Shown one piece after another: positions 1,960 through 20,438 of a stretch of 64,000 nucleotides of DNA. How positions within the stretch are numbered: position 1 is the stretch's first letter; each line of letters begins with the position of its first letter. The position numbers and the translations under genes were made by a program. Source of the DNA: a virus; the IMG/VR virus record IMGVR_UViG_3300028559_000015, positions 1-64,000 of that record; one strand, 5' to 3'. The notes beneath the pieces are model-generated. The model worked only from the letters and a program-made list of their open reading frames with translations. It did no database searches and was not told the origin of the DNA.

Positions 1960-1990
1960 AAAGATATTTTACGATGAGGTGATATTTCGG

Positions 1991-2017: not shown

Positions 2018-2028
2018 TTAAGAAAATA

Positions 2029-2062: not shown

Positions 2063-2090
2063 AGTTAGAAAATAATAAGTCTCTTATGAG

Positions 2091-2211: not shown

Positions 2212-2221
2212 ATCGTATGAT

Positions 2222-2342: not shown

Positions 2343-2352
2343 GTTATTAAGT

Positions 2353-2445: not shown

Positions 2446-2462
2446 GGGTATATTTTTCTAAT

Positions 2463-2538
2463 GCTCCTGTAGCTCAGTTGGTAGAGCACCTGACTGAAGA
2501 TCAGGGTGTCGTCGGTTCGATTCCGTCTGGGAGCACCA
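2463..2538 (+). tRNA. tRNA-Phe(GAA)
   Basis: CCTGA/TCAGG stem with loop CTGAAGA, normal D- and T-arms, encoded CCA. Confidence 0.92.
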
Positions 2539-2541
2539 AAT

Positions 2542-2676
2542 TTTACTCGTGTGTGTACGGTGACCCAAAAGATAGTCTCCATTCTCAAACCCAGGCTATC
2601 AAGTCCGATGTCCGTAGCAGTACTAATTTAGTTAGTATCAGTGACTTATGTTGAGATACGAGTTACGGCGAGTAAA
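2542..2676 (+). ncRNA. Structured spacer RNA
   Basis: Closed by TTTACTCG (2542-2549) with CGAGTAAA (2669-2676). Inner helices include GATAG/CTATC and ACTAA/TTAGT. No gene or anticodon seen. Confidence 0.4.
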
Positions 2677-2692
2677 TACATTATACTACTAT

Positions 2693-2778
2693 GCGGATGT
2701 GGCGAAATTGGTAGACGCACCAGATTTAGGTTCTGGCACTCGCAAGGTGTGGGGGTTCGAGTCCCTTCATCCGCACCA
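2693..2778 (+). tRNA. tRNA-Leu(TAG)
   Basis: Class II cloverleaf; CCAGA/TCTGG stem with loop TTTAGGT; encoded CCA. Confidence 0.93.
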
Positions 2779-2788
2779 CTCTTAAAAT

Positions 2789-2874
2789 GCCCCGATGGCG
2801 GAATCGGTAGACGCGGGAGACTCAAAATCTCTTGCCCAAAAGGCGTGGGGGTTCGAGTCCCTCTCGGGGCACCA
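2789..2874 (+). tRNA. tRNA-Leu(CAA)
   Basis: Class II cloverleaf; loop CTCAAAA; encoded CCA. Confidence 0.92.
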
Positions 2875-2889
2875 GCTATTTCAGAATTT

Positions 2890-2966
2890 GGGCCCTTAGC
2901 TCAGTAGGTTAGAGCGTCCGACTTTTAATCGGAAGGTCCTGGGTTCGAATCCCAGAGGGCCCACCA
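2890..2966 (+). tRNA. tRNA-Lys(TTT)
   Basis: GGGCCCT/AGGGCCC acceptor; TCCGA/TCGGA stem with loop CTTTTAA; encoded CCA. Confidence 0.93.
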
Positions 2967-2971
2967 AGTTT

Positions 2972-3066
2972 GCAACGTGGTGTAATGGTAGCACAGGAAG
3001 TCCGAGAGTCGTAATGATGGGTAGGCAGCAAGATGCCAGGATGCGGGTTCGATTCCCGACGTTGTG
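2972..3066 (+). ncRNA. tRNA-like RNA without a recognisable anticodon arm
   Basis: Acceptor GCAACGT/ACGTTGT, D-arm GTGTAATGGTAGCAC and T-arm GGGTTCGATTCCC are normal. Between D- and T-arms lie about 50 nt that do not form a standard anticodon arm; the clearest helix is GGCA/TGCC. No CCA is encoded. Either a damaged tRNA or a mimic. Confidence 0.55.
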
Positions 3067-3072
3067 ATTAAG

Positions 3073-3256
3073 TTTGTAGTGGGTGTTATAGTATAAGTCA
3101 CTGCGCGGAAGCCGGCCAGCGGAAACACAGTAAAGGATGTGTCCTTGCAAGGGACTTTTGATTCTGACTTATGCAACATTAACTTACCCAACTGACCGGC
3201 GCTTCTAATTGGTCGATAATGCTGCTGATGTTGTGGTACAGCAGGCCCACTATAAA
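3073..3256 (+). ncRNA. Structured RNA closed by 11-bp helix
   Basis: TTTGTAGTGGG (3073-3083) pairs with CCCACTATAAA (3246-3256). Inner helices: ATAAGTC/GACTTAT, GTCC/GGAC, GACC/GGTC and CTGCTG/CAGCAG. No reading frame. Confidence 0.45.
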
Positions 3257-3282
3257 GCATAAATATTCATGGGAGGGTTCCT

Positions 3283-3660
3283 ATGAAGAAACTAGCAATA
3301 TTGTTTTTGTTCTTAGTGCTTACAGCGTGTAATCAGCCTAATAATACAGGTGCTGACAACTATCGATTTGTTGGCGCAGATTTTAATTATCGATTTGGCG
3401 CAAAACAATACGAGAACAGTAGAGTTACTGTTGATATTGTCACCTACAAATCAAGAACTGACTTACAAAAAGAAGCACGTAAATATGGCGTAACTGATCC
3501 TAATTTGGCAGCATTTACTCTTTTATTTAAAAATGATCAAGGTAAATGCACTATACACATGATGGATCCATCTATTTCATATGAGCCTGAGTTTGTAGGT
3601 CACGAGTTCCTACATTGTGTTTATGGTCAATGGCATACAGATAATAAATCTACAAGATAA
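3283..3660 (+). CDS. Lipoprotein with HExxH motif
   Basis: 125 aa. Residues 1-16 form a lipoprotein signal with lipobox LTAC (Cys16). Near the C-terminus is GHEFLHCVYGQWH, a HExxH zinc-protease signature (HEFLH). It would be exported and lipid-anchored in the host envelope. GGGAGGG precedes the ATG, and an ATAAATA box (3259-3265) lies upstream. A metalloprotease role is inferred from the motif alone. Confidence 0.75.
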   Translation: MKKLAILFLFLVLTACNQPNNTGADNYRFVGADFNYRFGAKQYENSRVTVDIVTYKSRTDLQKEARKYGVTDPNLAAFTLLFKNDQGKCTIHMMDPSISYEPEFVGHEFLHCVYGQWHTDNKSTR

Positions 3661-3662
3661 TT

Positions 3663-3736
3663 GCCCTGTTAGTTAAATGGTAGAACGACTGTTTCGTAAT
3701 CAGTAGATGGCAGTTCGATTCTGCCATAGGGCACCA
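3663..3736 (+). tRNA. tRNA-Thr(CGT)
   Basis: GCCCTGT/ATAGGGC acceptor; anticodon loop TTCGTAA closed by a T-T mismatch on an ACTG/CAGT stem; encoded CCA. Confidence 0.85.
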
Positions 3737-3741
3737 AGTTT

Positions 3742-3835
3742 GCTCCCTTAGTTTAGCGGTAAAACACCTGGCTTATATCCAGCATCGTCTCCAGATTAGA
3801 GAGCGTCACAGGTTCGAATCCTGTAGGGAGTACCA
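3742..3835 (+). tRNA. Class II tRNA with TAT (Ile) anticodon
   Basis: GCTCCCT/AGGGAGT acceptor, D-arm with GCGGTAAAAC, T-arm ACAGG/CCTGT, encoded CCA. Loop CTTATAT gives TAT. About 25 nt lie between the anticodon stem and the T-stem and form a long variable arm (TCTC/GAGA). Ile tRNAs normally have a short variable loop, so its charging identity is uncertain. Confidence 0.75.
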
Positions 3836-3845
3836 AAACATTATT

Positions 3846-3931
3846 GCCCAGGTGGTGGAACGGTAGACACGCAACGTTGAGGTCGTTGTGGACGAAAGTC
3901 CGTGAAAGTTCGAGTCTTTTCTTGGGCACCA
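3846..3931 (+). tRNA. tRNA-Leu(GAG)
   Basis: Class II; CAACG/CGTTG stem with loop TTGAGGT; encoded CCA. Confidence 0.92.
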
Positions 3932-3971
3932 AATTATCAGCCAATGCTGATAGATTATTTATAGATTTTGG

Positions 3972-4000
3972 TTGCACTAAGTCCAATCATAGTCTATATA
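3972..4000 (+). promoter_or_regulatory. Putative promoter before HNH gene
   Basis: TTGCAC (3972-3977), 17-bp spacer, TATATA (3995-4000). An ATCAGC/GCTGAT hairpin lies just upstream. Confidence 0.5.
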
Positions 4001-4040
4001 ATATAAACAGTCTAAATATGATAATATATAGGAGTTAATC

Positions 4041-4601
4041 ATGGCGGTTCTAGCCTTAGACATTTCGGGTACTCCAAGAGCATGGATTACCAACGACGAC
4101 GCAATTAGCTATCATGCTAAGAACTTGGTTGTCTGGACTTTAGGAGATGTCATCGCTAAGTATCGCGGAGGCATTCAGAAGGACGGCCGACAAAGCTATC
4201 TTGAAACACCGAGCATCATTGCAGTACGTGGCACAGGATTCGATTTTCGTAAGCACAACAAAGTTGTCTTGACTAATCGTACCTTGTTTGCTCGTGATCG
4301 CAACATTTGCGGTTACTGCGGTGATCATTTTGGACACACGAGACTAAGCCGAGACCACATTGTTCCTAGATTCCATGGCGGAATCGATGAATGGACCAAC
4401 GTTGTCACTGCTTGCATCCCGTGCAACCAAAAGAAGGGGTGCAAGTCGCTCAAGCAATCCGGTATGGAACTGTTGTATGTCCCATATGAACCAAATCACT
4501 ACGAGCATTTGCTATTGCAAAACCGTCATGTTCTTGCTGATCAAATGGCATATCTAATGACAGGTGTACCGAAGCACAGTCGGCTTATTGATCTTAATTA
4601 G
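4041..4601 (+). CDS. HNH endonuclease (McrA-like)
   Basis: 186 aa. Residues 92-140 carry a classic HNH fold: CGYCG, then RDHIVPRFHGG, then ACIPCNQKKG. It is probably a homing nuclease, placed between tRNA-Leu(GAG) and tRNA-Asn. The N-terminal 85 residues may bind DNA but match no family I recognise. TAGGAG sits 8 nt before the ATG. Confidence 0.85.
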   Translation: MAVLALDISGTPRAWITNDDAISYHAKNLVVWTLGDVIAKYRGGIQKDGRQSYLETPSIIAVRGTGFDFRKHNKVVLTNRTLFARDRNICGYCGDHFGHTRLSRDHIVPRFHGGIDEWTNVVTACIPCNQKKGCKSLKQSGMELLYVPYEPNHYEHLLLQNRHVLADQMAYLMTGVPKHSRLIDLN

Positions 4602-4654
4602 AAAAATAAGCCGACACTGCTCAAGAAGTTAAATAGCATAGATGAAAGTTATGT

Positions 4655-4730
4655 TCCGCGATAGCTCAGTTGGTAGAGCGTCTGACTGTTAATCAGAATG
4701 TCCCTGGTTCGAGCCCAGGTCGTGGAGCCA
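4655..4730 (+). tRNA. tRNA-Asn(GTT)
   Basis: TCCGCGA/TCGTGGA acceptor; TCTGA/TCAGA stem with loop CTGTTAA; encoded CCA. Confidence 0.92.
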
Positions 4731-4738
4731 AAATTAAT

Positions 4739-4814
4739 GCCCCTATAGCTCATTTGGTAGAGCGCCTGCCTTGTAAGCAGGAGGCGGTGGGTTCGAAACC
4801 TGCTGGGGGCACCA
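4739..4814 (+). tRNA. tRNA-Thr(TGT)
   Basis: CCTGC/GCAGG stem with loop CTTGTAA; encoded CCA. Confidence 0.93.
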
Positions 4815-4819
4815 ATTAT

Positions 4820-4855
4820 AAAAGCAAGAGTTTATCAAAACTCTTGCTTTTACTT
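4820..4855 (+). terminator. Rho-independent-like terminator in tRNA array
   Basis: Perfect 14-bp hairpin (4820-4833 with 4838-4851, loop ATCA) ending in a T-rich tract. Confidence 0.7.
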
Positions 4856-4869
4856 TAACGATTTTGATT

Positions 4870-4946
4870 GTCTCCTTAGCTTAGCTGGATAGAGCAACAG
4901 ACTTCTAATCTGTAGGTCGCTGGTTCGAATCCAGCAGGGGACGCCA
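4870..4946 (+). tRNA. tRNA-Arg(TCT)
   Basis: ACAGA/TCTGT stem with loop CTTCTAA; encoded CCA. Confidence 0.92.
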
Positions 4947-4952
4947 TTTTTG

Positions 4953-5036
4953 AGCCACTCCCGCGAGGTGAGGCCTGACTCATCGACGTTTGCAAAGGCG
5001 TTGAGTTGGTGCTGGTGCGAGTCCAGCATGTGGTTG
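4953..5036 (+). ncRNA. tRNA-like RNA with altered T-loop
   Basis: AGCCAC/GTGGTT acceptor-like stem, T-arm GCTGG/CCAGC with loop TGCGAGT (second T replaced by G), and an enlarged middle arm closed by ACTCA/TGAGT with ACG/CGT inside. No normal anticodon and no CCA; a TTTTTT run follows. Confidence 0.5.
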
Positions 5037-5076
5037 CTTTTTTGAGAGATTAAGAATACGATATAAATAGATTCAT

Positions 5077-5152
5077 GGGGATATAGCTCAGTTGGTAGAG
5101 CGACGGCTTTGCAAGCCGTAGGTCCGGGGTTCGAACCCCCGTGTCTCCACCA
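5077..5152 (+). tRNA. tRNA-Ala(TGC)
   Basis: ACGGC/GCCGT stem with loop TTTGCAA; encoded CCA. Confidence 0.93.
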
Positions 5153-5159
5153 AAATTAT

Positions 5160-5234
5160 CGGGGAGTAAGTCAGCGGTAGACGGCCTGGTTTGGGACCAG
5201 GAGGTCGGAGGTTCGATCCCTCTCTCCCCGACCA
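5160..5234 (+). tRNA. tRNA-Pro(TGG)
   Basis: CGGGGAG/CTCCCCG acceptor; CCTGG/CCAGG stem with loop TTTGGGA; encoded CCA. Confidence 0.93.
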
Positions 5235-5241
5235 AAATAAG

Positions 5242-5316
5242 GCCCGGTTAGCTCAGCGGAAGAGCATCTCGTTTACACCGAGAGGGTCGGGGGTTCGAAC
5301 CCCTCACCGGGCACCA
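5242..5316 (+). tRNA. tRNA-Val(TAC)
   Basis: TCTCG/CGAGA stem with loop TTTACAC; encoded CCA. Confidence 0.93.
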
Positions 5317-5327
5317 TTTGTAGTAAG

Positions 5328-5362
5328 AACTACACACATAATGTGTGTAGTTTTTGGTTTTT
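5328..5362 (+). terminator. Rho-independent terminator
   Basis: AACTACACACAT pairs with ATGTGTGTAGTT, followed by TTTGGTTTTTT. Confidence 0.75.
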
Positions 5363-5389
5363 TGATAAATAGTTATTCACTGTTTAGCA

Positions 5390-5791
5390 GTGGGATATAA
5401 GGGGTTTTATGAGTTGCAAAAGATTAATAAACACCTCCTGGTTAAGGGTTTTATAGAAGAGGCGCCAGGGCCCGATTATGTATCAGTCTTGAATGACTGG
5501 TTTCTTAGGCTCGTTGAGGCTATCGATATGAAGGTTCTTATGAATCCTCACTGCGTATGGTGTGACGACGATGGGAATGAAGGCGTGACCGGCGTAGTGG
5601 GTATCACTACTAGTCACAGCAGCATTCACTTCTGGCCAGAATATTATATGTTTGATCTTTATTCTTGCAAGGAATTTGAGGTTGAGACCGTTGTTGAAAT
5701 GCTTAAGGAGTTCAAAACCCATAGCCTTCAATATCAAGTGATCAACCGAGATACCGGAGAAATGCTTGATAACGGTTTCCTTAACTTATAA
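5390..5791 (+). CDS. Hypothetical phage protein
   Basis: Up to 133 aa from a GTG at 5390. A TTG at 5414 with AAGGGG upstream is an alternative start and would give about 125 aa. Acidic, with no family I recognise. GATAAATAG (5364-5372) upstream resembles a late promoter box. It sits between tRNA-Val(TAC) and the unusual tRNA at 5801. Confidence 0.7.
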   Translation: MGYKGFYELQKINKHLLVKGFIEEAPGPDYVSVLNDWFLRLVEAIDMKVLMNPHCVWCDDDGNEGVTGVVGITTSHSSIHFWPEYYMFDLYSCKEFEVETVVEMLKEFKTHSLQYQVINRDTGEMLDNGFLNL

Positions 5792-5800
5792 ACTACCTAT

Positions 5801-5889
5801 GTAGGAATGACCGAGTGGTCGAAGGTGGCAGTCTCCAAAACTGTTGTGGCGCAAGCCCCGCGTGGGTTCGAATCCTACTTCCTATGCCA
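5801..5889 (+). tRNA. Class II, Ser-type tRNA with CCA (Trp) anticodon
   Basis: GTAGGAA/TTCCTAT acceptor, D-arm ACCGAGTGGTCGAAGGT like the Ser tRNAs at 7764 and 8263, long variable arm (GGCG..GCC region), T-arm normal, discriminator G, encoded CCA. Anticodon loop CTCCAAA reads UGG. Bacterial SerRS recognises the long arm rather than the anticodon, so this could be charged with serine and read Trp codons; that is inference. Confidence 0.8.
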
Positions 5890-5890
5890 A

Positions 5891-6138
5891 TTAAACTCAC
5901 TGTTCACCGAGGGGCAGCGTCAGCCCATTGACGACTTGTGGATGTCCGATAAGTCTCGTGCAACTTACACGAGGAACTGTTGGAATACAGAAACAAAGAA
6001 TCTTTGGGTACTGTGGTTGCAGCCCGAGAAAAAGCCGAGACTTTGAGGTAGAGGGAGAAGTCCCCGAGCCAAAGAGTCAGAGCAATTATCCCGCTACAGT
6101 GGTGAGTGGGGCTGTCACGCGGTGAACAGTGAGTTTAA
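5891..6138 (+). ncRNA. 248-nt structured RNA closed by a 19-bp perfect helix
   Basis: 5891-5909 is perfectly complementary to 6120-6138. Inside are CGTCA/TGACG, CTCGTG/CACGAG and GGCAGC/GCTGTC helices. The short reading frames crossing it are not gene-like. It ends 8 nt before the -35 box at 6146, so it may also act as the terminator of the preceding unit. Confidence 0.55.
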
Positions 6139-6145
6139 AAACTTC

Positions 6146-6174
6146 TTGACATTACCACGATCATGTCGTATATT
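6146..6174 (+). promoter_or_regulatory. Strong promoter for tRNA block
   Basis: TTGACA (6146-6151), 17-bp spacer, TATATT (6169-6174). Confidence 0.75.
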
Positions 6175-6181
6175 GAGAACA

Positions 6182-6215
6182 TAGAGAGCAGCGAGCTTTC
6201 TACGTTCTTTGACAT
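6182..6215 (+). promoter_or_regulatory. boxB hairpin plus boxA leader element
   Basis: TAGAGAGC (6182-6189), loop AGCGA, GCTTTCTA (6195-6202), then GTTCTTTGACAT (6204-6215). It starts just after the -10 box at 6169, exactly as in an rRNA leader, and matches 2029-2062 in loop and boxA sequence. Confidence 0.65.
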
Positions 6216-6231
6216 TGTTAGAAATTCTAAT

Positions 6232-6317
6232 GCGAGTATGGCGAAATTGGTAGACGCCTCAGACTTAAAATCTGATATCTTAATGGTGTGCCGGTTCGAG
6301 TCCGGCTACTCGCACCA
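6232..6317 (+). tRNA. tRNA-Leu(TAA)
   Basis: Class II; TCAGA/TCTGA stem with loop CTTAAAA; encoded CCA. First tRNA after the promoter and boxB/boxA leader. Confidence 0.93.
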
Positions 6318-6323
6318 AACTTT

Positions 6324-6488
6324 AGACTTGTTACGCTATCACTGCGATCTTCGGTTCGAAACGATGACAGTAGATGTGGTGTAAGGTAGCACTCCGCCCG
6401 ACGATAGGCCGATACGAGGCCGACAATAGGGGGGCGGTTCGGGTTTCGAAGTCCCGAAGCTATATTGCAGTGATAGCGTAACAAGTTT
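6324..6488 (+). ncRNA. tRNA-like RNA with 20-bp end helix and rebuilt anticodon arm
   Basis: 6326-6345 pairs perfectly with 6467-6486. D-arm GTGTAAGGTAGCAC is normal. The next arm is CCGCCC/GGGCGG enclosing a second hairpin (GGCC GATACGA GGCC), and the T-arm is TTCGGG/CCCGAA with TTTCGAAGT. The segment GAAACGATGA...GGTA.CACTCCG is shared with the RNA at 676-959. It is not a standard tRNA and is flanked by tRNA-Leu(TAA) and tRNA-Glu. Confidence 0.6.
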
Positions 6489-6490
6489 AT

Positions 6491-6566
6491 GCACCCATCG
6501 TCTAGTGGTCTAGGATATCGCCCTTTCAAGGCGGGGACACGGGTTCAAATCCCGTTGGGTGTACCA
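6491..6566 (+). tRNA. tRNA-Glu(TTC)
   Basis: GCACCCA/TGGGTGT acceptor; TCGCC/GGCGG stem with loop CTTTCAA; encoded CCA. Confidence 0.93.
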
Positions 6567-6643
6567 AATAATACTCACGTTGGGTATACTGTATAAATAT
6601 ACACGGTCCAGAGATAAGGACCAAATCACAAAAGGAAAACAAA

Positions 6644-6826
6644 ATGAAGAAGATTATTGCAATTGCTAGCTTGGCTAGCGTACTTACACTTGGTGCTTGC
6701 TCTCAAGAAGCTGCTCCTGCGGTTGACGCAATCGACGCAGAAGTTGCTGAGGCTGCCGAAGGTGCAGATGAAGTAGCTGCCGAAGTTGCTCCTGCCGAAG
6801 GTGCTCCTGCCGCTGCCGCTCAGTAA
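6644..6826 (+). CDS. Small Ala/Glu-rich lipoprotein
   Basis: 60 aa. Lipoprotein signal with lipobox LGAC (Cys19), then a low-complexity Ala/Glu/Pro tail. It would be anchored in the host envelope. AGGAAAAC precedes the ATG, and TATAAATAT (6592-6600) upstream is late-promoter-like. A role in surface change or lysis is possible but not shown. Confidence 0.75.
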   Translation: MKKIIAIASLASVLTLGACSQEAAPAVDAIDAEVAEAAEGADEVAAEVAPAEGAPAAAAQ

Positions 6827-6860
6827 TAGAAGTAAGTAAACAACCATCGAGGACATCATC

Positions 6861-7064
6861 ATGGGACAAGTTATTCACGTAGATTTCTCTACAAGAAATC
6901 ATCATCAAAATGAACTTTCTGTATATCTGGATTATCTACGAACAAGTGGCTTAGACGAAGATGATGTCCTCGACATTCAAGATGCAATTCTTGACAAGGA
7001 CCGCTACTTCGAAGCAGACGAAATCATTCAAGAGTTTGCAAACAGCTGGTTCGAACAGTCTTGA
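6861..7064 (+). CDS. Hypothetical acidic protein
   Basis: 67 aa, acidic, no family recognised. It follows the small lipoprotein gene; GAGGAC lies upstream of the ATG. Next downstream is an HNH gene. Confidence 0.65.
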   Translation: MGQVIHVDFSTRNHHQNELSVYLDYLRTSGLDEDDVLDIQDAILDKDRYFEADEIIQEFANSWFEQS

Positions 7065-7118
7065 TAAGCAGATTTCAAATCTGACTTACAAATGATAAAT
7101 ACATTTGAGGAGTTAGAT

Positions 7119-7556
7119 ATGAAACAGAAACATAAAGACAAATTTACTGATGCCGAACTTATTGCTCAATATCAAATGATGCCGACTTTAAGCAAGTTGT
7201 CTCATTACTTTGATGTTCCGGATGTTACTATTTGGAGAAGAGCAAAGAAGTTAGGATTGGAATTTAAGATAGGCGGCGCAAACGCAAAGTTTCCACTGTC
7301 TGAAATCTTAGAAGGAAAACACCCTCAATATCAAAGTAACAAGCTAAAACATAGACTTGTCAATGAGGGCGTAAAAGAAGATAAATGTGAAGTGTGTGGA
7401 ATCACAGAATGGCAAGGTGTGCCTATTACAATGCAACTTGACCACATTGACGGTAACTCACACAATCATTTATATGACAACCTAAGATTAGTCTGTCCCA
7501 ACTGTCATGCACAAACAGACACTTGGTGCGGAAAGAATAAAAAAGTTAATGGGTGA
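7119..7556 (+). CDS. HNH homing endonuclease
   Basis: 145 aa from the ATG at 7119, which has GAGGAG 6 nt upstream; an earlier in-frame ATG at 7092 lacks this. The N-terminal half has a helix-turn-helix-like segment (LSKLSHYFDVPDVTIWRRAK). The C-terminal half is an HNH nuclease: CEVCG, LDHIDGNSHNH, CPNCHAQ, closely like the one at 1193. The final GGG TGA codons are also the first bases of tRNA-Tyr. GATAAATAC (7094-7102) upstream. Confidence 0.85.
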   Translation: MKQKHKDKFTDAELIAQYQMMPTLSKLSHYFDVPDVTIWRRAKKLGLEFKIGGANAKFPLSEILEGKHPQYQSNKLKHRLVNEGVKEDKCEVCGITEWQGVPITMQLDHIDGNSHNHLYDNLRLVCPNCHAQTDTWCGKNKKVNG

Positions 7557-7636
7557 TCGCCGAAGTTGGAGAGTCGGGACAGTCTGTAAAACTGTTGTGT
7601 AATGCTGAGTTGGTTCGAATCCATCATCACCCACCA
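7551..7636 (+). tRNA. tRNA-Tyr(GTA)
   Basis: GGGTGAT/ATCACCC acceptor, loop CTGTAAA, long variable arm as usual for bacterial Tyr, encoded CCA. Overlaps the stop codon of the HNH gene. Confidence 0.9.
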
Positions 7637-7643
7637 ATATAAT

Positions 7644-7718
7644 GCGCCTGTAGCTCAGGGGAAGAGCACCGTGCTGATAACGCGGTGGTCGGAGGTTCAA
7701 ATCCTCCCGGGCGCACCA
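7644..7718 (+). tRNA. tRNA-Ile(GAT)
   Basis: GCGCCTG/CGGGCGC acceptor; CCGTG/CGCGG stem with loop CTGATAA; encoded CCA. Confidence 0.92.
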
Positions 7719-7763
7719 ATTATAAAAAGTATACGTCAATCATAACTACATAAATATTAATAC

Positions 7764-7853
7764 GGAAGCGTGTCCGAGTGGTTTAAGGATCTTGTCTTGA
7801 AAACAAGCGAGGGTGAAAGTCCTCCGTGAGTTCGAATCTCACCGCTTCCGCCA
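7764..7853 (+). tRNA. tRNA-Ser(TGA)
   Basis: Class II; CTTGT/ACAAG stem with loop CTTGAAA; discriminator G; encoded CCA. Confidence 0.93.
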
Positions 7854-7873
7854 TCATTCATTAGGAGAAAGAT

Positions 7874-8257
7874 GTGTCATACCTATTATTCTTAGACGAT
7901 GAGCGACATCCTGATGATGTTACGTGGGAAAAGTTCCCCAGAGATTTGGTTACGTTCATCTTAAAAGATTTTGATACGTTCGTGAAGCAAGTCATAACCT
8001 CAGGAATGCCTGCGTTCGTGTGCTTCGATCATGATCTATGTGATCAACACTATGAGGCTATGATAGCAGAAGCGCAAGGTCTTCCGGCAGACTATGGTCC
8101 TAAGAAGACGGGCTATGACGCTGCTAAATGGCTAGTAGATTTCTGTGAAGATAACAAGCGTAAGTTTCCCCGTTATGTGGTTCATTCTATGAATCCGGAA
8201 GGGAAAGAACGAATCATCGCATACATCGAGGATGCTAAGAATCGGCTAGATATCTAG
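7874..8257 (+). CDS. Receiver-like protein, cyclic-phosphate-processing type
   Basis: 127 aa from GTG. It opens with YLLFLDDERHP, the signature of the small stand-alone receiver-like proteins proposed to act in RNA end (cyclic phosphate) processing, and has FDHDL at about residue 52. AGGAGA lies 6 nt before the GTG. An RNA-repair role would fit a tRNA-rich locus, because anticodon nucleases leave cyclic phosphate ends. The family call comes from motifs only. Confidence 0.65.
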   Translation: MSYLLFLDDERHPDDVTWEKFPRDLVTFILKDFDTFVKQVITSGMPAFVCFDHDLCDQHYEAMIAEAQGLPADYGPKKTGYDAAKWLVDFCEDNKRKFPRYVVHSMNPEGKERIIAYIEDAKNRLDI

Positions 8258-8262
8258 AATAC

Positions 8263-8352
8263 GGAGAGTTGGCTGAGCGGTCGAAAGCGGCACCCTGCTA
8301 AGGTGTTGTACGGGCAACTGTACCGAGGGTTCGAATCCCTCACTCTCCGCCA
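8263..8352 (+). tRNA. tRNA-Ser(GCT)
   Basis: Class II; GCACC/GGTGT stem with loop CTGCTAA; discriminator G; encoded CCA. Confidence 0.93.
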
Positions 8353-8371
8353 AGATTTTAAAAATAACAGT

Positions 8372-8400
8372 TGACATTGGTTATCCGTTTTGCTATATTG
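8372..8400 (+). promoter_or_regulatory. Promoter of the repeated TATATTGAAT family
   Basis: TTGACA, 17-bp spacer ending TTTTGC, TATATT, then GAATTATAAGCTGAG. Nearly the same sequence recurs at 20021, 22141, 49369 and 62688. Confidence 0.75.
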
Positions 8401-8433
8401 AATTATAAGCTGAGAAAACGGAGTTACAAAGAC

Positions 8434-8553
8434 ATGAATAAGCATCGTTTGGTCACTGTCAACGGCGTGATTTATCGCGGGTTTGATATTGATGGTAAAC
8501 TTTATGTTGTTATGATTCCTCTCGGCAATCATGGTGATTGCATCAGGGCTTGA
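8434..8553 (+). CDS. Small hypothetical protein
   Basis: 39 aa, ATG with CGGAG upstream, directly behind a strong promoter. No family recognised. It ends just before tRNA-Cys. Confidence 0.6.
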   Translation: MNKHRLVTVNGVIYRGFDIDGKLYVVMIPLGNHGDCIRA

Positions 8554-8578
8554 CAACGTTCTGTAAAATATGTATAAC

Positions 8579-8660
8579 GCACCGGTGGCAGATTGGGAAT
8601 GCGGTGGACTGCAAATCCGCTACGCAAGTGAAGTAGGTTCGATTCCTACCCGGTGCTCCA
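8579..8660 (+). tRNA. tRNA-Cys(GCA)
   Basis: GCACCGG/CCGGTGC acceptor; GTGGA/TCCGC stem with loop CTGCAAA; discriminator T; encoded CCA. Confidence 0.9.
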
Positions 8661-8774
8661 AATACTAAACATATCGGTACCGATTGAAGTCAAATATTGA
8701 GGACATAGGGCGAATCGGCTAAGAGAATGCATGTGTGACTGCCACTATACGTTTGGTAAAGACAAAGAGATTAA

Positions 8775-8850
8775 AGGCGAATAGTTCAATTGGTAGAACC
8801 TTCTGCTCATAACAGAATAGTTGTCGGTTCAAGTCCGGCTTCGCCTACCA
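8775..8850 (+). tRNA. tRNA-Met(CAT), elongator or Ile2
   Basis: AGGCGAA/TTCGCCT acceptor; TTCTG/CAGAA stem with loop CTCATAA; encoded CCA. A lysidine-modified Ile tRNA cannot be excluded. Confidence 0.85.
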
Positions 8851-8871
8851 AATACTAGAAAGGAGAAGGCA

Positions 8872-9234
8872 ATGGAATGGCCAAAAGTTGATGAAATGCT
8901 CGGTCAGACCTTCTCTAAGGTTTGGTCTGATGACGAGACAGTGACGTTTGAAAATGATGAGGTGCGTTATACGCTCTATCACGCTCAGGATTGTTGCGAA
9001 AGTGTTTACGTCGAAGATATATGCGGTGACTTGGAAGACTTGGAGGGCTGGCCTATGCTAGTCTCCAGAGAAGATACGAACGTTGAAGGTCCGGTCATGG
9101 ATGACGAAAGTTATACGTGGACGTTCTACAACTTCGCAACCTTCAAGGGATTTGTGACTGTTCGATTCTACGGATCCTCGAACGGGTACTATTCAGAAGA
9201 CGTATCTTTCAAGAAAGAGCTACTTGCTAATTGA
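8872..9234 (+). CDS. Conserved phage protein, function unknown
   Basis: 120 aa; AGGAGA precedes the ATG at 8872. Acidic, with YHAQDCCESVYVEDICGDLEDL near residue 33, a pattern I associate with a widespread small phage family of unknown function. It lies between two tRNA genes. Confidence 0.75.
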   Translation: MEWPKVDEMLGQTFSKVWSDDETVTFENDEVRYTLYHAQDCCESVYVEDICGDLEDLEGWPMLVSREDTNVEGPVMDDESYTWTFYNFATFKGFVTVRFYGSSNGYYSEDVSFKKELLAN

Positions 9235-9260
9235 CAGATTCGAATAACGAAAGAATTTAA

Positions 9261-9434
9261 GTGAAAGTCTATATCCTTATCAACCGCGAGATATATGGTT
9301 TATCCAGAATTATTGCTGTGTATGACAATCTTGATGAAGCTGAAAAGCATCGTAAGAACCTAAATGATAACGAAGACTTTTTCGACGATAACAACTACTC
9401 TATCGAAACACATAGTGTAGATACAAAGTTTTAG
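9261..9434 (+). CDS. Small hypothetical protein
   Basis: 57 aa from GTG; weak ribosome-binding site. The stop codon shares its last base with the start of tRNA-Lys(CTT). Beta-alpha-type sequence with acidic C-terminus; no family recognised. Confidence 0.5.
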   Translation: MKVYILINREIYGLSRIIAVYDNLDEAEKHRKNLNDNEDFFDDNNYSIETHSVDTKF

Positions 9435-9519
9435 GGCGTATTGGACAATTGGTTGGTCCAGCAGACTCTTAATCTGCCGCAGAAATGCCTTGTGAGTTCG
9501 AACCTCACTACGCCCTCCA
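9434..9519 (+). tRNA. tRNA-Lys(CTT)
   Basis: GGGCGTA/TACGCCC acceptor; GCAGA/TCTGC stem with loop CTCTTAA; somewhat long variable region; discriminator T; encoded CCA. Confidence 0.87.
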
Positions 9520-9526
9520 ATACAAT

Positions 9527-9540
9527 CCCGGGCGCCCGGG
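9527..9540. repeat. 14-bp perfect GC palindrome
   Basis: CCCGGGCGCCCGGG, directly after tRNA-Lys. Could be a processing hairpin or a protein site; no T-tract follows. Confidence 0.6.
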
Positions 9541-9607
9541 TTGATGCATTTAGGTGCGGTGCGTTGTAAAATAGGCAGGTAACTGCCGAGTGTCACGAAT
9601 TTTTGAG

Positions 9608-9684
9608 TTGCCGATGAAGCTAGGTCGCTCCTAGACATATGGAAGTAATTACTCTTAGTAGATGTGATGTCTACCCATCGGCAA
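9608..9684 (+). ncRNA. 77-nt tRNA-sized cloverleaf RNA
   Basis: TTGCCGATG (9608-9616) pairs perfectly with CATCGGCAA (9676-9684). Arms: CTAGG/CCTAG, a middle AGTAATTACT palindrome, and GTAGA/TCTAC with a 7-nt loop TGTGATG in T-arm position. No anticodon-like loop. A GGCAG/CTGCC hairpin lies just upstream (about 9574-9587). Confidence 0.5.
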
Positions 9685-9708
9685 ACGAAGCAATATAAGG
9701 AGGATATC

Positions 9709-9870
9709 ATGCCAGCAATGACATTAGCGAAGTCGGGCAAGCGTTATACTCATGAAGAATGGGTTAAGTTAGACGCCGAAGAACGCATACAGCTTCTTAG
9801 TATGTATGGCCCGGGTTATACAGACGAAGCGTGGAAAAAGCATTACGGTAATAGAAAGAAAAATAAATGA
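9709..9870 (+). CDS. Small hypothetical protein upstream of pth2
   Basis: 53 aa; AAGGAGGATATC precedes this ATG, so it is preferred over the upstream in-frame ATG at 9664. Basic C-terminus. Overlaps the next gene by ATGA, indicating translational coupling to the peptidyl-tRNA hydrolase. Confidence 0.7.
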   Translation: MPAMTLAKSGKRYTHEEWVKLDAEERIQLLSMYGPGYTDEAWKKHYGNRKKNK

Positions 9871-10280
9871 AACATAAGATGTACTGTATCTTTGCTAAAG
9901 AGAGCGTTCAGAAGATGAACGGTATCCGTGGCAAAATGTGTACGCAGGCAGGACATGCTTATCTACACGCATTTTGGGATGCAACTATCCCTAATGCGAA
10001 TCATACTACGATTGCTGAACCTGATATTCTTGTTAAGAAGCAGGAACAGGCACTAGCGTATGCTCACGGTGATCATGCATATAAGATCACTCTTATCGTA
10101 GACACTGTTGATGAGTTGAAAGCATTGCAAGAAGCATACAAGAATGTCTGCGGTACTGCACTAGTGACTGATGCAGGATTCACTGTTTTCAATGAACCGA
10201 CTACGACTTGTCTTGGCATCGGTCCGATACGAGAAGATAACATCGGTGAAGATTTGAAAGCACTAAAGACGTTTACTTAA
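9867..10280 (+). CDS. Peptidyl-tRNA hydrolase, type 2 (Pth2-like)
   Basis: 137 aa. Pth2 proteins release peptides from stalled peptidyl-tRNAs and recycle tRNA. The family signature is visible in order: GKMCTQAGHA near residue 23, KITLIVDTVDEL near residue 73, then DAGFTVFNEPTTTCLGIGP near residues 107-125. This is the archaeal/eukaryotic-type enzyme, not the usual bacterial Pth. It is coupled by ATGA overlap to the gene before and followed by tRNA-Met, so it sits inside the tRNA array it would serve. Confidence 0.88.
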   Translation: MKHKMYCIFAKESVQKMNGIRGKMCTQAGHAYLHAFWDATIPNANHTTIAEPDILVKKQEQALAYAHGDHAYKITLIVDTVDELKALQEAYKNVCGTALVTDAGFTVFNEPTTTCLGIGPIREDNIGEDLKALKTFT

Positions 10281-10281
10281 T

Positions 10282-10358
10282 GACGGGGTAGCTCAGTTGG
10301 TCAGAGCGCCAGACTCATATTCTGGATGTCGAAGGTTCAAGTCCTTCTTCCGTCACCA
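10282..10358 (+). tRNA. tRNA-Met(CAT), second copy
   Basis: GACGGGG/TTCCGTC acceptor; CCAGA/TCTGG stem with loop CTCATAT; encoded CCA. Either this or 8775 may be Ile2. Confidence 0.87.
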
Positions 10359-10366
10359 AACTTAAT

Positions 10367-10443
10367 GGCTCGTTAGTCGAGTTGGTCAAGACGCCAGCCT
10401 GTCACGCTGGAGATCACGGGTTCGAGTCCCGTACGAGTCGCCA
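10367..10443 (+). tRNA. tRNA-Asp(GTC)
   Basis: GGCTCGT/ACGAGTC acceptor; CCAGC/GCTGG stem with loop CTGTCAC; encoded CCA. Confidence 0.93.
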
Positions 10444-10514
10444 TTTTTAATACCCAAAACACTGTACAACAGTGATCGTTTATACTATAGTCAGTAAATA
10501 AGAAGGAAACACAC

Positions 10515-11078
10515 ATGAAGATCAATCTACGCAAGGCCAACGCTATTCAAGTAGCGATCAACGAAACTGTCAAGGGCCTTGAATTCAATGCTACGGCTAG
10601 CATTAACGAGTTCCAAGACGCTGACAAAGAGATTCTTGCTGCGTCCAGCAAGTTCAGCGGCAACCTCGCTCGCCGTCTCGCTTTGCTTGATGCCCTTTAC
10701 GAGATTCGTAAGGCGGTCGCGTCGGCAAACGATAGCGCAGGCATCGATGGTCGTCTCGCTGACGTTGCCCGACTTGAAAAGGACCTTCAGTTCTACAGCA
10801 CGTATGCAAAGGCTTCGGTCATTACCGATTCCGCTGTCATCAACGGCAAGCTAGAGAAGATTCGTAACCGCAAGGAAGATGCTTATTCTTACCGAGGCGA
10901 GACGGTCGACACTTCTATCTTTAACGAAAAGGTACTTGAAAGTTTCAAGGGTATCGTTGCTTCTACTAAGAAGCAGAAGCAGAAGCTGCAGGACGAACTC
11001 CTTGAGTTGAACGTCCGCACTGAAATTGAGTTTTCAGCGGCAACTGTTACTACGCTCACCAACGAGAAAATCCTTTAA
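10515..11078 (+). CDS. Conserved phage protein, helical
   Basis: 187 aa, AAGGAAAC before the ATG. Mostly helical, Lys/Glu-rich, with likely coiled-coil segments (about 80-110 and 145-170). TATACTAT upstream may be its -10 box. GC content is higher than in the surrounding tRNA spacers. No function recognised. Confidence 0.75.
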   Translation: MKINLRKANAIQVAINETVKGLEFNATASINEFQDADKEILAASSKFSGNLARRLALLDALYEIRKAVASANDSAGIDGRLADVARLEKDLQFYSTYAKASVITDSAVINGKLEKIRNRKEDAYSYRGETVDTSIFNEKVLESFKGIVASTKKQKQKLQDELLELNVRTEIEFSAATVTTLTNEKIL

Positions 11079-11087
11079 GGGGGTATG

Positions 11088-11501
11088 ATGAAAGTCGGTC
11101 TTAGTTACAGTCGTTGTGTTAAGGATATTGTTGACGGCAAGGTCAACATCGATGATGTTTTGGTGGTAATCGCCCGAACCGACTTTGACCCTACTAACGA
11201 TAAGCAGTGGGGAGGAATTTGGGATGGCTACACCGGAGGCGGCCTGTTTAGTCATGCTGAATGGCATGGCTACCCTGACGAGCAGAAGTTCCGTGAGGTA
11301 ACTTTAGAACTCTATAACAGAGGGAAGCTGCATCAGCCACGCAAGTTTGGAGTAATGCCCAAACGTCGTCCAGAGATTTGGTTGGAAGTAGTTCTTCTTG
11401 ACTCTGAACTAGAGCGTAACCCTGCTGCTAAAAATGCATGGGAACAGTTTCAGATGATTGCTGGTCTAACCGACGTTAAGGTAGATCACAACTATCAATA
11501 A
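11088..11501 (+). CDS. Conserved phage protein
   Basis: 137 aa from ATG 11088 (GGGGG 4 nt upstream; an adjacent ATG at 11085 is possible). It opens MKVGLSYSRC and contains WGGIWDGYTGGGLFSHAEW. No function recognised. The stop codon lies within the 5' arm of the RNA helix starting at 11497. Confidence 0.7.
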   Translation: MKVGLSYSRCVKDIVDGKVNIDDVLVVIARTDFDPTNDKQWGGIWDGYTGGGLFSHAEWHGYPDEQKFREVTLELYNRGKLHQPRKFGVMPKRRPEIWLEVVLLDSELERNPAAKNAWEQFQMIAGLTDVKVDHNYQ

Positions 11502-11637
11502 GTTTGGTAGGTCGGCCCCCTAGTAGGGGTAAACTACCCGGAAGGAAAAGAGAGACGAGAGTAGGCATTTACGTTTCAGTAATGAAACATTGATCAGGCG
11601 CTTGAAACGCTCCATACTAGCATGAATCAAACTTATT
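11497..11637 (+). ncRNA. Structured RNA closed by 10-bp helix
   Basis: AATAAGTTTG (11497-11506) pairs with CAAACTTATT (11628-11637). Inner hairpins: CCCC/GGGG, GTTTCA/TGAAAC and a GGCG..CGCTCC helix. Further hairpins (TCTC/GAGA, GATAG/CTATC) follow at about 11695-11750. No gene seen in 11502-11897. Confidence 0.45.
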
Positions 11638-11798
11638 TTGTTGCACATTGTGGTTTGAGTATAAGTTAGTTTTTGCAGTTTGTTTTTTGTTGATTGCTTG
11701 ATAGGTTGTTCTCTTGAGAGACACCGATGCAGATTGCACAGTCTATCACTTACTTTTTTCCTTCTGTATTTTTTTTTAAATAATAGGCAAAATAGTTC

Positions 11799-11827
11799 TT
11801 GACATTGAGGTCAAGAGCAGCTATATT
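11799..11827 (+). promoter_or_regulatory. Promoter, first of a tandem pair
   Basis: TTGACA (11799-11804), 17 bp, TATATT (11822-11827). Confidence 0.75.
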
Positions 11828-11856
11828 AAGTAAATCAAGAAAAGCAAAAAAAGTTC

Positions 11857-11885
11857 TTGACATTTTATAAGGAACTATATATCTG
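11857..11885 (+). promoter_or_regulatory. Promoter, second of a tandem pair
   Basis: TTGACA (11857-11862) and a TATATC/TATCTG -10 region at 11878-11885. Confidence 0.6.
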
Positions 11886-11897
11886 TAGGAGGAAAGA

Positions 11898-12071
11898 ATG
11901 GTTGCAACACAAGAAACAGATAATGCTATTAAAAAATTCTACAGAGATTTGGGATACACGGACAGAATATCTGGAAAACAGCGAAAAATAAATCTAGACG
12001 GTCTTGTAGTTAAGTGGTATAATGAGGGGTTCGATGCTTCATATCCTTTCTGGGATGCTGAAGCATCTTAA
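11898..12071 (+). CDS. Small hypothetical protein
   Basis: 57 aa; GGAGGAAAGA directly upstream of ATG, behind two promoters. No family recognised. The 3' end encodes a GATGC/GCATC hairpin. It precedes a boxA-like site and the large RNA region, so its mRNA may lead into the RNA operon. Confidence 0.65.
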   Translation: MVATQETDNAIKKFYRDLGYTDRISGKQRKINLDGLVVKWYNEGFDASYPFWDAEAS

Positions 12072-12091
12072 GCAGCAAAATAAGTAGTATT

Positions 12092-12110
12092 AGTTCTTTG
12101 AAATTGTTGA
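12092..12110 (+). promoter_or_regulatory. boxA-like sequence
   Basis: A GTTCTTTGAAATTGTTGA segment resembles the boxA elements at 2051 and 6204. It lacks the conserved boxB hairpin and precedes the RNA at 12117. Confidence 0.4.
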
Positions 12111-12116
12111 TGACAT

Positions 12117-12220
12117 ACTCATTAGATGAATACTGTTGGCGTAATGGGGAAGTGGTATCCCTCCCGTAAAGCGGTGGTCCTGGCGTTGGTTCGAATCCAA
12201 CCAGTGTTCTTCTAATGAGT
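12117..12220 (+). ncRNA. tRNA-like RNA with 19-bp end helix
   Basis: 12117-12135 pairs with 12202-12220 (TTAGATGAATAC with the complementary GTGTTCTTCTAA). A perfect T-arm GTTGG TTCGAAT CCAAC lies at 12185-12201. The D/anticodon part (GTAATGGGGAAGTGGTATCCC...) gives no good 5-bp anticodon stem. Same family as 2091-2211 by its end helix. Confidence 0.55.
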
Positions 12221-12224
12221 ATAA

Positions 12225-13070
12225 GAATTGGGGGCATAGCCTCACTAGGGTAGCAGGGAGTAATCTCTGTCAAAGCAAGGTTTCCTATAAACTTGCGCCA
12301 GCAATGGTCCATCTATGCAAGCCTGAGTTAGAGTTGACTCGCTTAAGCGAAAGCAACTCCCGTCTGTAGAAAGGCGGTAGGCAGTAAGTCAGAGTTGAAG
12401 TCCGAAAGGATAGGAACAGAGCCAGTCGGTGAGTTCTAAGAGGGTTGGCGCCCGAACTTCAACTAGCCAAACTGACGAATGTTGAATACTAACAGGTAGT
12501 TATTGAGTCTGACCTCGCAAGGGAAGGCAAGATAGCAATACAAACGAGGAAGGGATAACCGGAATCGTGAAGTATGATTGAGTATCCCGCAAGGAGAAAG
12601 ATACTAGGTGTGTTGTATTCTGTATCTAACAAGATATGGAGCAACTGGAGCAGCACATCTTCGTAGGTTCGCAAATTGCATAATGGTAATGCAACAGTTT
12701 TATGTACTGTAGATTCTAGGTTCAACTCCTAGTTTGTAACACAAAAGCGAAAGACTGCTCCGGTATATGTTTAAAGGTGCTTAATACCACACTCGCAAGG
12801 GAATGTGGTTCAGGGATGCTCGCAAGGCGGAACTGATTGATCGGAAAGAAAGCGTAGGTTCTTAGCGGAATCGAACTGCTCGCAAGGCAGGCGAAGGATA
12901 GATGGTCGAGTAGACATATGCGACGAGTCAAACGCCAGACTCTAAAAAAGGCAGCATTGAGTGATACTAGGTGACTGTAAAAAGCTCTAGTGGATAACGG
13001 TAGAACGGTCCTCGCAAGGGATTCGGTAATGACCAAAGACACTCGCTACAAGCCCGTAATCTCAGGGTGG
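12225..13070 (+). ncRNA. Large structured RNA with embedded tRNA, GOLLD-like
   Basis: About 850 nt with no reading frame but dense pairing: GCATAG/CTATGC, GAGTTG/CAACTC, GTTGAAGT/ACTTCAAC inside GTCAG/CTGAC, CCACA/TGTGG. At least six GCAA tetraloop motifs (CTCGCAAGG or CCGCAAGG) occur between 12513 and 13020. The helix GGAGCAG (12647-12653) with CTGCTCC (12755-12761) encloses a tRNA-like gene. Length, phage context beside tRNAs, and an internal tRNA all match the GOLLD RNA class of phage and metagenomes. I have not compared it to a covariance model; ends are approximate. Confidence 0.55.
12667..12741 (+). tRNA. tRNA-Ile(TAT)-like gene inside the large RNA
   Basis: D-arm TGCATAATGGTAATGCA, ACAGT/ACTGT anticodon stem with loop TTTATGT (TAT), T-arm CTAGG TTCAACT CCTAG. 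The acceptor pairs only with a bulged C (GTT-C-GCAAA with TTTGT-AAC). No CCA. Confidence 0.7.
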
Positions 13071-13173
13071 ATTATAAATAGACTAAATAATATTAGACTA
13101 TTTTGATGAACGCATTCGCAATCAGGACGCTGATGCTCGTTGAAGTGGAGTAGGAAGTAGCTACCTATGACAT

Positions 13174-13188
13174 GGAGAGTTGGCTGAG
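13174..13188 (+). pseudogene. tRNA-Ser(GCT) 5' fragment
   Basis: GGAGAGTTGGCTGAG is identical to the first 15 nt of tRNA-Ser at 8263 and then diverges. A recombination relic upstream of the initiator tRNA. Confidence 0.65.
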
Positions 13189-13210
13189 TGTGTTCTTCAA
13201 AATAGTTTAT

Positions 13211-13289
13211 CGCGGGGTAGAGGAGTTGGGTCGTCCTCGCCGGTCTCATAAATCGGAAATCGTTGGTTCAAATCCAACTCCCGCAACCA
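13211..13289 (+). tRNA. Initiator tRNA-fMet(CAT)
   Basis: CGCGGGG with TCCCGCA gives the C1-A72 mismatch typical of bacterial initiators. Loop CTCATAA on CCGGT/ATCGG, T-arm TTGGTTCAAATCCAA, discriminator A, CCA. Its layout follows the E. coli fMet tRNA. The three consecutive G-C pairs at the base of the anticodon stem are incomplete. Confidence 0.88.
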
Positions 13290-13296
13290 ATACTAA

Positions 13297-13370
13297 GCGG
13301 CATTAGCATAGTGGTAATGCTCCAGCCTTCCAAGCTGATTAGAAGGGTTCGATTCCCTTATGCCGCTCCA
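13297..13370 (+). tRNA. tRNA-Gly(TCC)
   Basis: GCGGCAT/ATGCCGC acceptor; loop CTTCCAA; discriminator T; encoded CCA. Confidence 0.92.
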
Positions 13371-13386
13371 AAACAGTGCGTGAGAT

Positions 13387-13806
13387 ATGATTGATAGAAA
13401 ATGTGACGGTTGTAATAAATGCTGTCAGGGACACTTGACTGCTACTATATACGGATTTGAAATGTATCCGGGAAAACCTTGTCACTTCGCATCTAAGACA
13501 GGATGTTCTATCTATCCACTCAGACCCGCTGATCCTTGTCAAGGATTCAAGTGTGTTTGGAAATCTAACGTAGCAGTTCCTATCTCATTCAAACCTGATG
13601 AAATTGGGATGATAATGATTGATGCAGTGAAAGACGGCATTCCTTACGTAAGTATAGTGTCTGCTGGTAAAGAAATTTCACTAGAAGTCATTGATTGGGC
13701 TGTCGGGATGGTAAACTCTGGTAAGATCGAAAATATCGTTTATAAACAAAACAACGGTATTAGGATCATATCACACAATAAAGACTTCGTTGACAAGTTC
13801 ACTTGA
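13387..13806 (+). CDS. YkgJ-type cysteine-cluster protein
   Basis: 139 aa. The N-terminal 60 residues hold CDGCNKCC, then CHF, GCSIYPLRPADPC and FKC, the cysteine-rich metal-binding (Zn/Fe-S) pattern of the YkgJ/CxxCxxCC family. Function in phages is not known. The start ATG lies 17 nt after tRNA-Gly and lacks a strong ribosome-binding site. Confidence 0.75.
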   Translation: MIDRKCDGCNKCCQGHLTATIYGFEMYPGKPCHFASKTGCSIYPLRPADPCQGFKCVWKSNVAVPISFKPDEIGMIMIDAVKDGIPYVSIVSAGKEISLEVIDWAVGMVNSGKIENIVYKQNNGIRIISHNKDFVDKFT

Positions 13807-13822
13807 TCGAGTCAACTTAAAT

Positions 13823-13897
13823 GCGGGCATAGCTCAGTGGTAGAGCGTCACCTTGCCAAGGTGAATGTCGGGGGTTCGAATCCCCCTGCCCGCTCCA
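13823..13897 (+). tRNA. tRNA-Gly(GCC)
   Basis: GCGGGCA/TGCCCGC acceptor; TCACC/GGTGA stem with loop TTGCCAA; encoded CCA. Last tRNA of the array. Confidence 0.93.
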
Positions 13898-19624: not shown

Positions 19625-19935
19625 GCGAAGATACCCTTCGTGTAATCGCTGCCGCTTACGAGATTGTTCCGACACTGAACGATACTCGGGCGGTTAGGAC
19701 GATCATCAGCGCACCGCCCCCGGCCCGCCATCACAATCTCTGCGGCCTTGAATATCACCTGAAGGAGCGAGGTATGATCGCCGACGAGCAGACGACACGC
19801 AACAGCGGGTTTCTTCTGTCGGACGGCACCTATGCCGATCGGAAGCGGGCCTGCGCTGTAGCTATCGCAGCGGGTCAGGTGACCGCCGACAAAATGACCG
19901 TGCAAGGCACCCTGTTCTCAGAGGATTTGTGGTGA
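19621..19935 (+). CDS. Conserved phage protein
   Basis: 104 aa. The segment SGFLLSDGTYADRKRACAVAIAAGQV resembles a short motif (SGF-TSDGRFVDRKEA..IA..AGQ) common in phage proteins of unknown role. GC-rich codon use. Confidence 0.7.
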   Translation: MSEDTLRVIAAAYEIVPTLNDTRAVRTIISAPPPARHHNLCGLEYHLKERGMIADEQTTRNSGFLLSDGTYADRKRACAVAIAAGQVTADKMTVQGTLFSEDLW

Positions 19936-20020
19936 CCCTCATCACACGCCTAGCAATACGATTGACTGTGATATTGAATTGTAAAAGTTCAATCTAAATT
20001 GAGTTTTTGGTGAAAAAAGG

Positions 20021-20049
20021 TTGACTTCGGGTATTCGGTTTGCTATATT
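20021..20049 (+). promoter_or_regulatory. Promoter of the repeated TATATTGAAT family
   Basis: TTGACT (20021-20026), 17 bp, TATATT (20044-20049), followed by GAATCATAGACAGA. Confidence 0.75.
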
Positions 20050-20087
20050 GAATCATAGACAGACACACACAAACGGAGCTGACGAAA

Positions 20088-20438
20088 ATGGCTTACATGA
20101 ATCAAGAGCGTAAAGCAATCATCGCTTCTAACTTGAAGCCTATCCTCAAGAAGTACAACATGAAGGGCACCCTTTCTGTCCGTGACCATTCTAGCATCGT
20201 GCTGACTCTCAAGTCTGGCAAGATTGATTTTGGTTCCGCTCGTGATCAGGTGAATCCTTACTGGTTCCACGAACACTACGAAGGTGTTGCTAAGGAGTTT
20301 CTCACCGAAGCGTTTGCTGCTCTCAAGAGCGCAGGATGGTATAATAATACCCGCGCGGAGATTGACTATTTTGATATTGCTTACTACGTTGATGTCAACG
20401 TTGGTAAGTGGAACAAGCCCTACGTGCTGGAGTCGTAA
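20088..20438 (+). CDS. Conserved phage protein
   Basis: 116 aa. It opens MAYMNQERKAIIASNLKPILKKYNMKGTLSVR, a beginning shared by a small protein family of many large phages; function unknown. It is well expressed by context: family promoter and CGGAGCTGACGAAA before the ATG. Confidence 0.75.
   Translation: MAYMNQERKAIIASNLKPILKKYNMKGTLSVRDHSSIVLTLKSGKIDFGSARDQVNPYWFHEHYEGVAKEFLTEAFAALKSAGWYNNTRAEIDYFDIAYYVDVNVGKWNKPYVLES

Follow-up and report, generated by a model that had tools for sequence, protein, structure and literature searches.

What kind of element is the tRNA that lies within a phage GOLLD RNA, and why is it kept there? GOLLD RNAs (RF02032), reportedly described by Weinberg et al. 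in 2009, are to our knowledge among the largest natural RNA-only cages, and we know of no function for them. The locus addressed here lies in positions 1 to 64,000 of the IMG/VR virus record IMGVR_UViG_3300028559_000015, a stretch of 64,000 nucleotides (nt) referred to as the window, in which the linker of a GOLLD RNA carries an element recognised as tRNA-Ile(TAT). Comparison with related linkers indicates that this element is very probably a retained tRNA-like domain which would not decode and would lack a working amino-acid end. A tRNA inside GOLLD is not new in itself, because such elements are reported in PMC12286853 and PMC6582537; what appears to be new, judging from the sequences, is that the acceptor end of GOLLD's "tRNA" is defective and its anticodon loop hypervariable.

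A complete GOLLD RNA in a phage tRNA cluster

A preliminary description of the locus had proposed a candidate GOLLD RNA of about 850 nt, gene-free, highly paired, rich in GCAA tetraloop motifs and enclosing a tRNA-Ile(TAT)-like gene in a 7-bp helix. The RNA is, with near certainty, a complete GOLLD of about 850 nt with a separate 5' domain, because the RF02032 match is full-length and the helices covary in 50 relatives. The covariance model matches 12605-13068 with 192.4 bits (E 1.1e-52; gathering score, 150 bits) over the entire model (1-416), and RNAalifold applied to the 50 relatives (12254-13069) finds covariation behind most helices, with double changes in both halves, so that the search and the homologues with matching pairing called for in that description both came out in its favour. 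Its other structural claims hold as well: 12072-13172 is free of + strand open reading frames of at least 40 amino acids, the fold of the region beats 20 of 20 shuffles (z -3.98), CGCAAG occurs six times, and the 7-bp helix (GGAGCAG 12647-12653 with CTGCTCC 12755-12761) is part of a helix of 9 pairs in the 50 relatives. The best borders of conservation come from locus L166, which is 97.2% identical to the window over ~12207-13110 and 88-91% identical in most of the flanking sequence. The main parts of the RNA are:

12219..13079, + strand: full-length GOLLD RNA, approximate ends (Rfam match, RNAalifold of 50 relatives, block conserved with L166)
12219..12604, + strand: GOLLD 5' domain, outside the Rfam model (about 20 helix segments, double changes in the majority)
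12605..13068, + strand: GOLLD 3' conserved domain, model positions 1-416 (RF02032, 192.4 bits, E 1.1e-52)
12646..12654, + strand: linker-enclosing helix, 5' strand (9 pairs, 99% of cells paired in 50 relatives)
12753..12762, + strand: linker-enclosing helix, 3' strand (RNAalifold, 50 relatives)

By analogy with the published cage (PMC12286853), the 5' domain may form the cage cap. The phage context is given by the IMG/VR virus record itself, a family B DNA polymerase gene and nearby tRNA genes. Known GOLLDs occur in phages near tRNAs and can contain one, as the preliminary description noted; here 38 ARAGORN calls form a cluster around the GOLLD (241-13897), and a linker tRNA has been published (PMC12286853).

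Linkers of related GOLLDs

Three pattern scans of viral contigs, together with earlier loci, yielded 90 linkers, 72 of them distinct; the scan patterns set the length of the linker and leave its content free. Good cloverleaves were present in 68 of the distinct linkers, which constitute the parsed set; the contigs that carry them also supplied 1037 distinct free tRNAs for comparison. The acceptor comparison is fair because the parser ignores the acceptor stem, and the contrast is slightly conservative since a few linker domains lying outside the pattern (e.g. L126) were left within the "free" set.

A blind sample of 113 stretches, including the window, was picked by a 3'-end motif with the linker not considered. 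A linker cloverleaf was found in 22 of these and in none of 113 shuffled sequences. Because chance matches to the motif are expected at large collection size, the covariance model was applied to the first 80 stretches of this viral sample: 71 match GOLLD (the other nine are not GOLLD), and 15 of these 71 carry a linker cloverleaf. Motif matches in bacterial genomes were set aside as mostly chance expected at that collection size.

A well-kept tRNA body with a defective amino-acid end

12669..12740, + strand: linker tRNA-like domain, ARAGORN tRNA-Ile TAT (ARAGORN, Rfam, parser, free-tRNA comparison)
12669..12675, + strand: acceptor 5' strand TCGCAAA, pairing with TTTGTAA 12733-12739
12699..12705, + strand: anticodon loop TTTATGT, hypervariable part of the domain (loop comparisons)
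12668..12672, + strand: GOLLD helix competing with the outer acceptor stem, 5' strand TTCGC (covariation, pairs with 12747-12751)
12747..12751, + strand: the same competing helix, 3' strand GCGAA (covariation)

The body of the domain is that of a tRNA. In the window it scores 54.0 bits with the Rfam tRNA model and 23.5 with the parser, and possesses D, anticodon and T arms as well as the elbow signature. Across the 68 linkers the D, anticodon and T stems hold on average 3.96 of 4, 4.94 of 5 and 5 of 5 pairs, the stems vary by compensatory pair types, and tertiary pair 15-48 covaries (A-T in 42, T-A in 10 and G-C in 9 of 66 domains). Whole domains have been exchanged, as shown by L135 and L136, whose GOLLD cores are identical by tree and whose tRNA bodies differ. 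A recent copy of one of the contigs' free tRNAs was considered and rejected for the window domain, whose nearest free tRNA is just 63% identical.

The amino-acid end is different. The three outer acceptor pairs (1-72, 2-71 and 3-70) are formed in 57, 25 and 66% of linker domains versus 91, 94 and 94% of free tRNAs, while the inner four are formed in 96-97% of linker domains. A full 7/7 stem occurs in 3 of 68 linker domains against 848 of 1037 free tRNAs, and an encoded CCA is present in 3% of the former and 85% of the latter (p 1e-46). None of the 22 cloverleaves of the blind sample has all seven acceptor pairs, and CCA is present in two. In the window, pair 2-71 is a C-A mismatch, 3-70 is G-U, and the acceptor is followed by CACA and not CCA; among the window's 19 parsed free tRNAs, all have a 7/7 acceptor and 18 have CCA. 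Cultured relatives with a linker domain, namely DSS3_MAL1 and MD18 (annotated tRNA-Arg), Cp1R7A-A1 (annotated tRNA-Leu) and Phosso (unannotated), have, as read from their sequences, an acceptor reduced to 3-4 inner pairs and lack CCA. A GOLLD helix (12668-12672/12747-12751), in which the 5' acceptor strand pairs with GCGAA of the GOLLD flank, can compete with the outer acceptor stem in the window's branch. This helix covaries (TTCGC/GCGAA, TTGC/GCAA); it averages 4.53 pairs against 4.02 +/- 0.07 with shuffled partners, with just 3 pairs in 16 of 68.

These data bear on the simplest alternative, a working tRNA excised from the GOLLD transcript and provided with CCA by the host CCA-adding enzyme. 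ARAGORN and Rfam both call a tRNA at 12669-12740, in agreement with the preliminary description, and a few relatives (L184, L076/L157 and L074) retain ACCA or TCCA beside a nearly complete acceptor stem. However, besides the rarity of pair 2-71 and of CCA, the long variable arm is absent from all 11 linker domains with Leu or Ser anticodons, stop anticodons occur, and some anticodon loops have 8 nt. In the Mycobacterium aubagnense GOLLD, too, the inner "pseudo tRNA" was not detected as a separately expressed RNA (PMC6582537). We therefore consider a working tRNA very improbable, and the label "tRNA-Ile gene" is misleading because the amino-acid end is defective.

A hypervariable anticodon loop

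Close pairs of domains were chosen with the loop left out of the identity measure for linkers and free tRNAs, so that the two groups are compared like for like. In 10 disjoint close pairs of linker domains, 31 of 72 loop sites differ (43%) versus 16 of 634 sites (2.5%) outside the loop, and in 81 pairs of free tRNAs 8 of 567 loop sites differ (1.4%), the yardsticks for loop speed being the remainder of the domain and free-tRNA loops. A test per pair is safer than one per site because a single event may cause several changes within a loop; the anticodon differs in 8 of 10 linker pairs and in 2 of 81 free-tRNA pairs (p 2e-8). On the GOLLD tree there are at least 40 anticodon changes among 83 rows. 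The change is not uniform along the loop: U33 is unchanged in all 10 close pairs and R37 seldom changes. Between L155 and L160, for example, positions 32, 34, 35, 36 and 38 differ and 33 and 37 are the same, with ~98% identity around.

Could the domain be inert, a captured tRNA gene kept only as a spacer whose compact fold makes safe linker filler and whose anticodon loop drifts freely? Variability and disorder in GOLLD are located in the linker (PMC12286853), the linker of some relatives is short or holds no tRNA, and with a dead acceptor the anticodon would have nothing to decode. Yet the loop changes far more than either the remaining domain or the ~1 kb of sequence around it, beyond what simple drift at this divergence suggests, and the preservation of U33 and R37 and the covarying 15-48 pair also speak against it. 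We regard this explanation as somewhat unlikely.

The loop has 8 nt in 10 of the 68 parsed domains (L158, L182, L189, L194, L197, L198, L143, L151, L181 and L130), a loop length also seen in +1 frameshift suppressor tRNAs. These loops, the varying anticodons and the lack of a linker cloverleaf in most GOLLDs of the blind sample count against a tRNA mimic that binds the ribosome or other translation machinery and recruits it to, or retains it on, the GOLLD RNA. In favour of such a mimic, elbow and anticodon arm are what has been preserved, and ribosome pull-downs with GOLLD are cited in Kretsch et al. (PMC12286853); even so, we judge it improbable.

A kissing interaction of the loop with its own GOLLD RNA was rejected, complementarity being 5.33 versus 5.40 with swapped loops. 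Nor do linkers and free tRNAs of the same contig share an anticodon convincingly more often than expected (22 of 43 versus 17.2 +/- 2.5 shuffled).

A possible role for the linker domain

The best overall explanation, to which we would give an even chance, is a non-decoding tRNA-like linker domain, caged, and both kept and diversifying through a recogniser of tRNA shape. With a weak outer acceptor stem and no CCA, the domain would escape excision, whether through RNase P or through tRNA 3' nucleases, and would remain joined to the GOLLD chain; by analogy with the published 14-mer, up to 14 copies might face the cage interior. It may be kept because it encounters a tRNA-shape recogniser, the likeliest being a tRNA-cleaving defence of the host; diversification of the loop could then provide either escape from cleavage of the GOLLD chain or bait. 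Since the loop changes while U33 and R37 stay, the pattern resembles pressure from an anticodon-loop reader, for which anticodon nucleases of the host are the best-documented candidates. That the loop is in conflict with these nucleases is a tentative proposal, possible but short of probable. A broader idea, that GOLLD cages display many uncharged copies of a tRNA mimic whose rapidly diversifying loop serves as counter-defence against bacterial tRNA-cleaving immunity, being either bait or a target tuned for escape, seems to us rather unlikely.

Several points weigh against this explanation. The window acceptor has 6 of 7 pairs if G-U is counted, and the few nearly intact domains mentioned above look recently captured. 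The commonest loops, CTCTTAA, CTGTTAA and CTTCTAA, are ordinary tRNA loops. The tRNA-like domain is not essential, because the cloverleaf is gone in some tRNA-linker GOLLDs (L032, L061, L096, DSS3P8 and V10). A nuclease would have difficulty reaching a domain enclosed in a cage, and no tRNA-cleaving enzyme was linked to the hosts of these phages.

A GOLLD tRNA mimic with a hypervariable loop nevertheless provides a concrete lead toward a tRNA-recognising partner. In practical terms, tRNA annotations within GOLLD, such as the tRNA-Arg of DSS3_MAL1 and MD18 and the tRNA-Leu of Cp1R7A-A1, should not be counted for translation without evidence.

Neighbouring features and related loci

The 89,904-base virus record contains only the window's GOLLD; another record, L082 (G074), has two (19736-20149 and 36280-36673). 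Within the window, the ARAGORN calls at 12128-12210 (Thr CGT, ending just upstream of the GOLLD) and 9434-9519 (Lys CTT) are below Rfam gathering and may be degenerate, and a second tRNA-Ile(TAT) call (3742-3835) has 94 nt, an unusual length for an isoleucine tRNA. A promoter scan did no better than shuffles, with 3 sites versus 2.7 expected, the best with 11/12 matches at 11799-11827, and a scan for terminator-like sites after 13068 found none.

In four roseophages a phage-encoded tmRNA of alphaproteobacterial type lies directly 3' of the GOLLD (L002, 4542-4958; L007, 4696-5111; L005, 4652-5038; L008, 4652-5043). DSS3P8 and V10 (L005 and L008) are relatives of roseophages that do bear the tRNA; their own linker (~4100-4170) retains arm-like remnants and lacks a T arm, as if a tRNA-like domain had decayed there.

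Comparison with known systems

In tmRNA and the tRNA-like structures of plant viruses, a tRNA-shaped domain is part of a larger RNA and keeps a chargeable acceptor end. The GOLLD linker domain also lies within a larger RNA but, from its sequence, is apparently not chargeable.

Cryo-EM by Kretsch et al. (2025) revealed a GOLLD 14-mer cage (env-38 RNA) with the linker inside, and the authors note that the linker sometimes holds phage tRNAs (PMC12286853). GOLLDs with a linker tRNA are thus already published and the window is a further member of that kind, sharing the full 3' model match, the length of ~850 nt, the separate 5' domain, the phage tRNA cluster and the linker tRNA. The difference is that the element is there a "phage-encoded tRNA", while its relatives here have a defective acceptor and a hypervariable loop. 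Closer to the domain described here is the "pseudo tRNA" inside the M. aubagnense GOLLD, for which a 2019 paper reports no detected separate transcript (PMC6582537). It too is a defective tRNA-like element within GOLLD, but it concerns one species and, in the accessible text, loop and acceptor are not compared across relatives. Finally, van den Berg et al. (2023) proposed that mutations in the anticodon loops of phage tRNAs evade host anticodon nucleases (PMC10264068). The loop changes are alike in the two cases; in contrast, those tRNAs are free and proposed to restore translation, whereas the linker domain appears as part of a larger RNA, without an amino-acid end.
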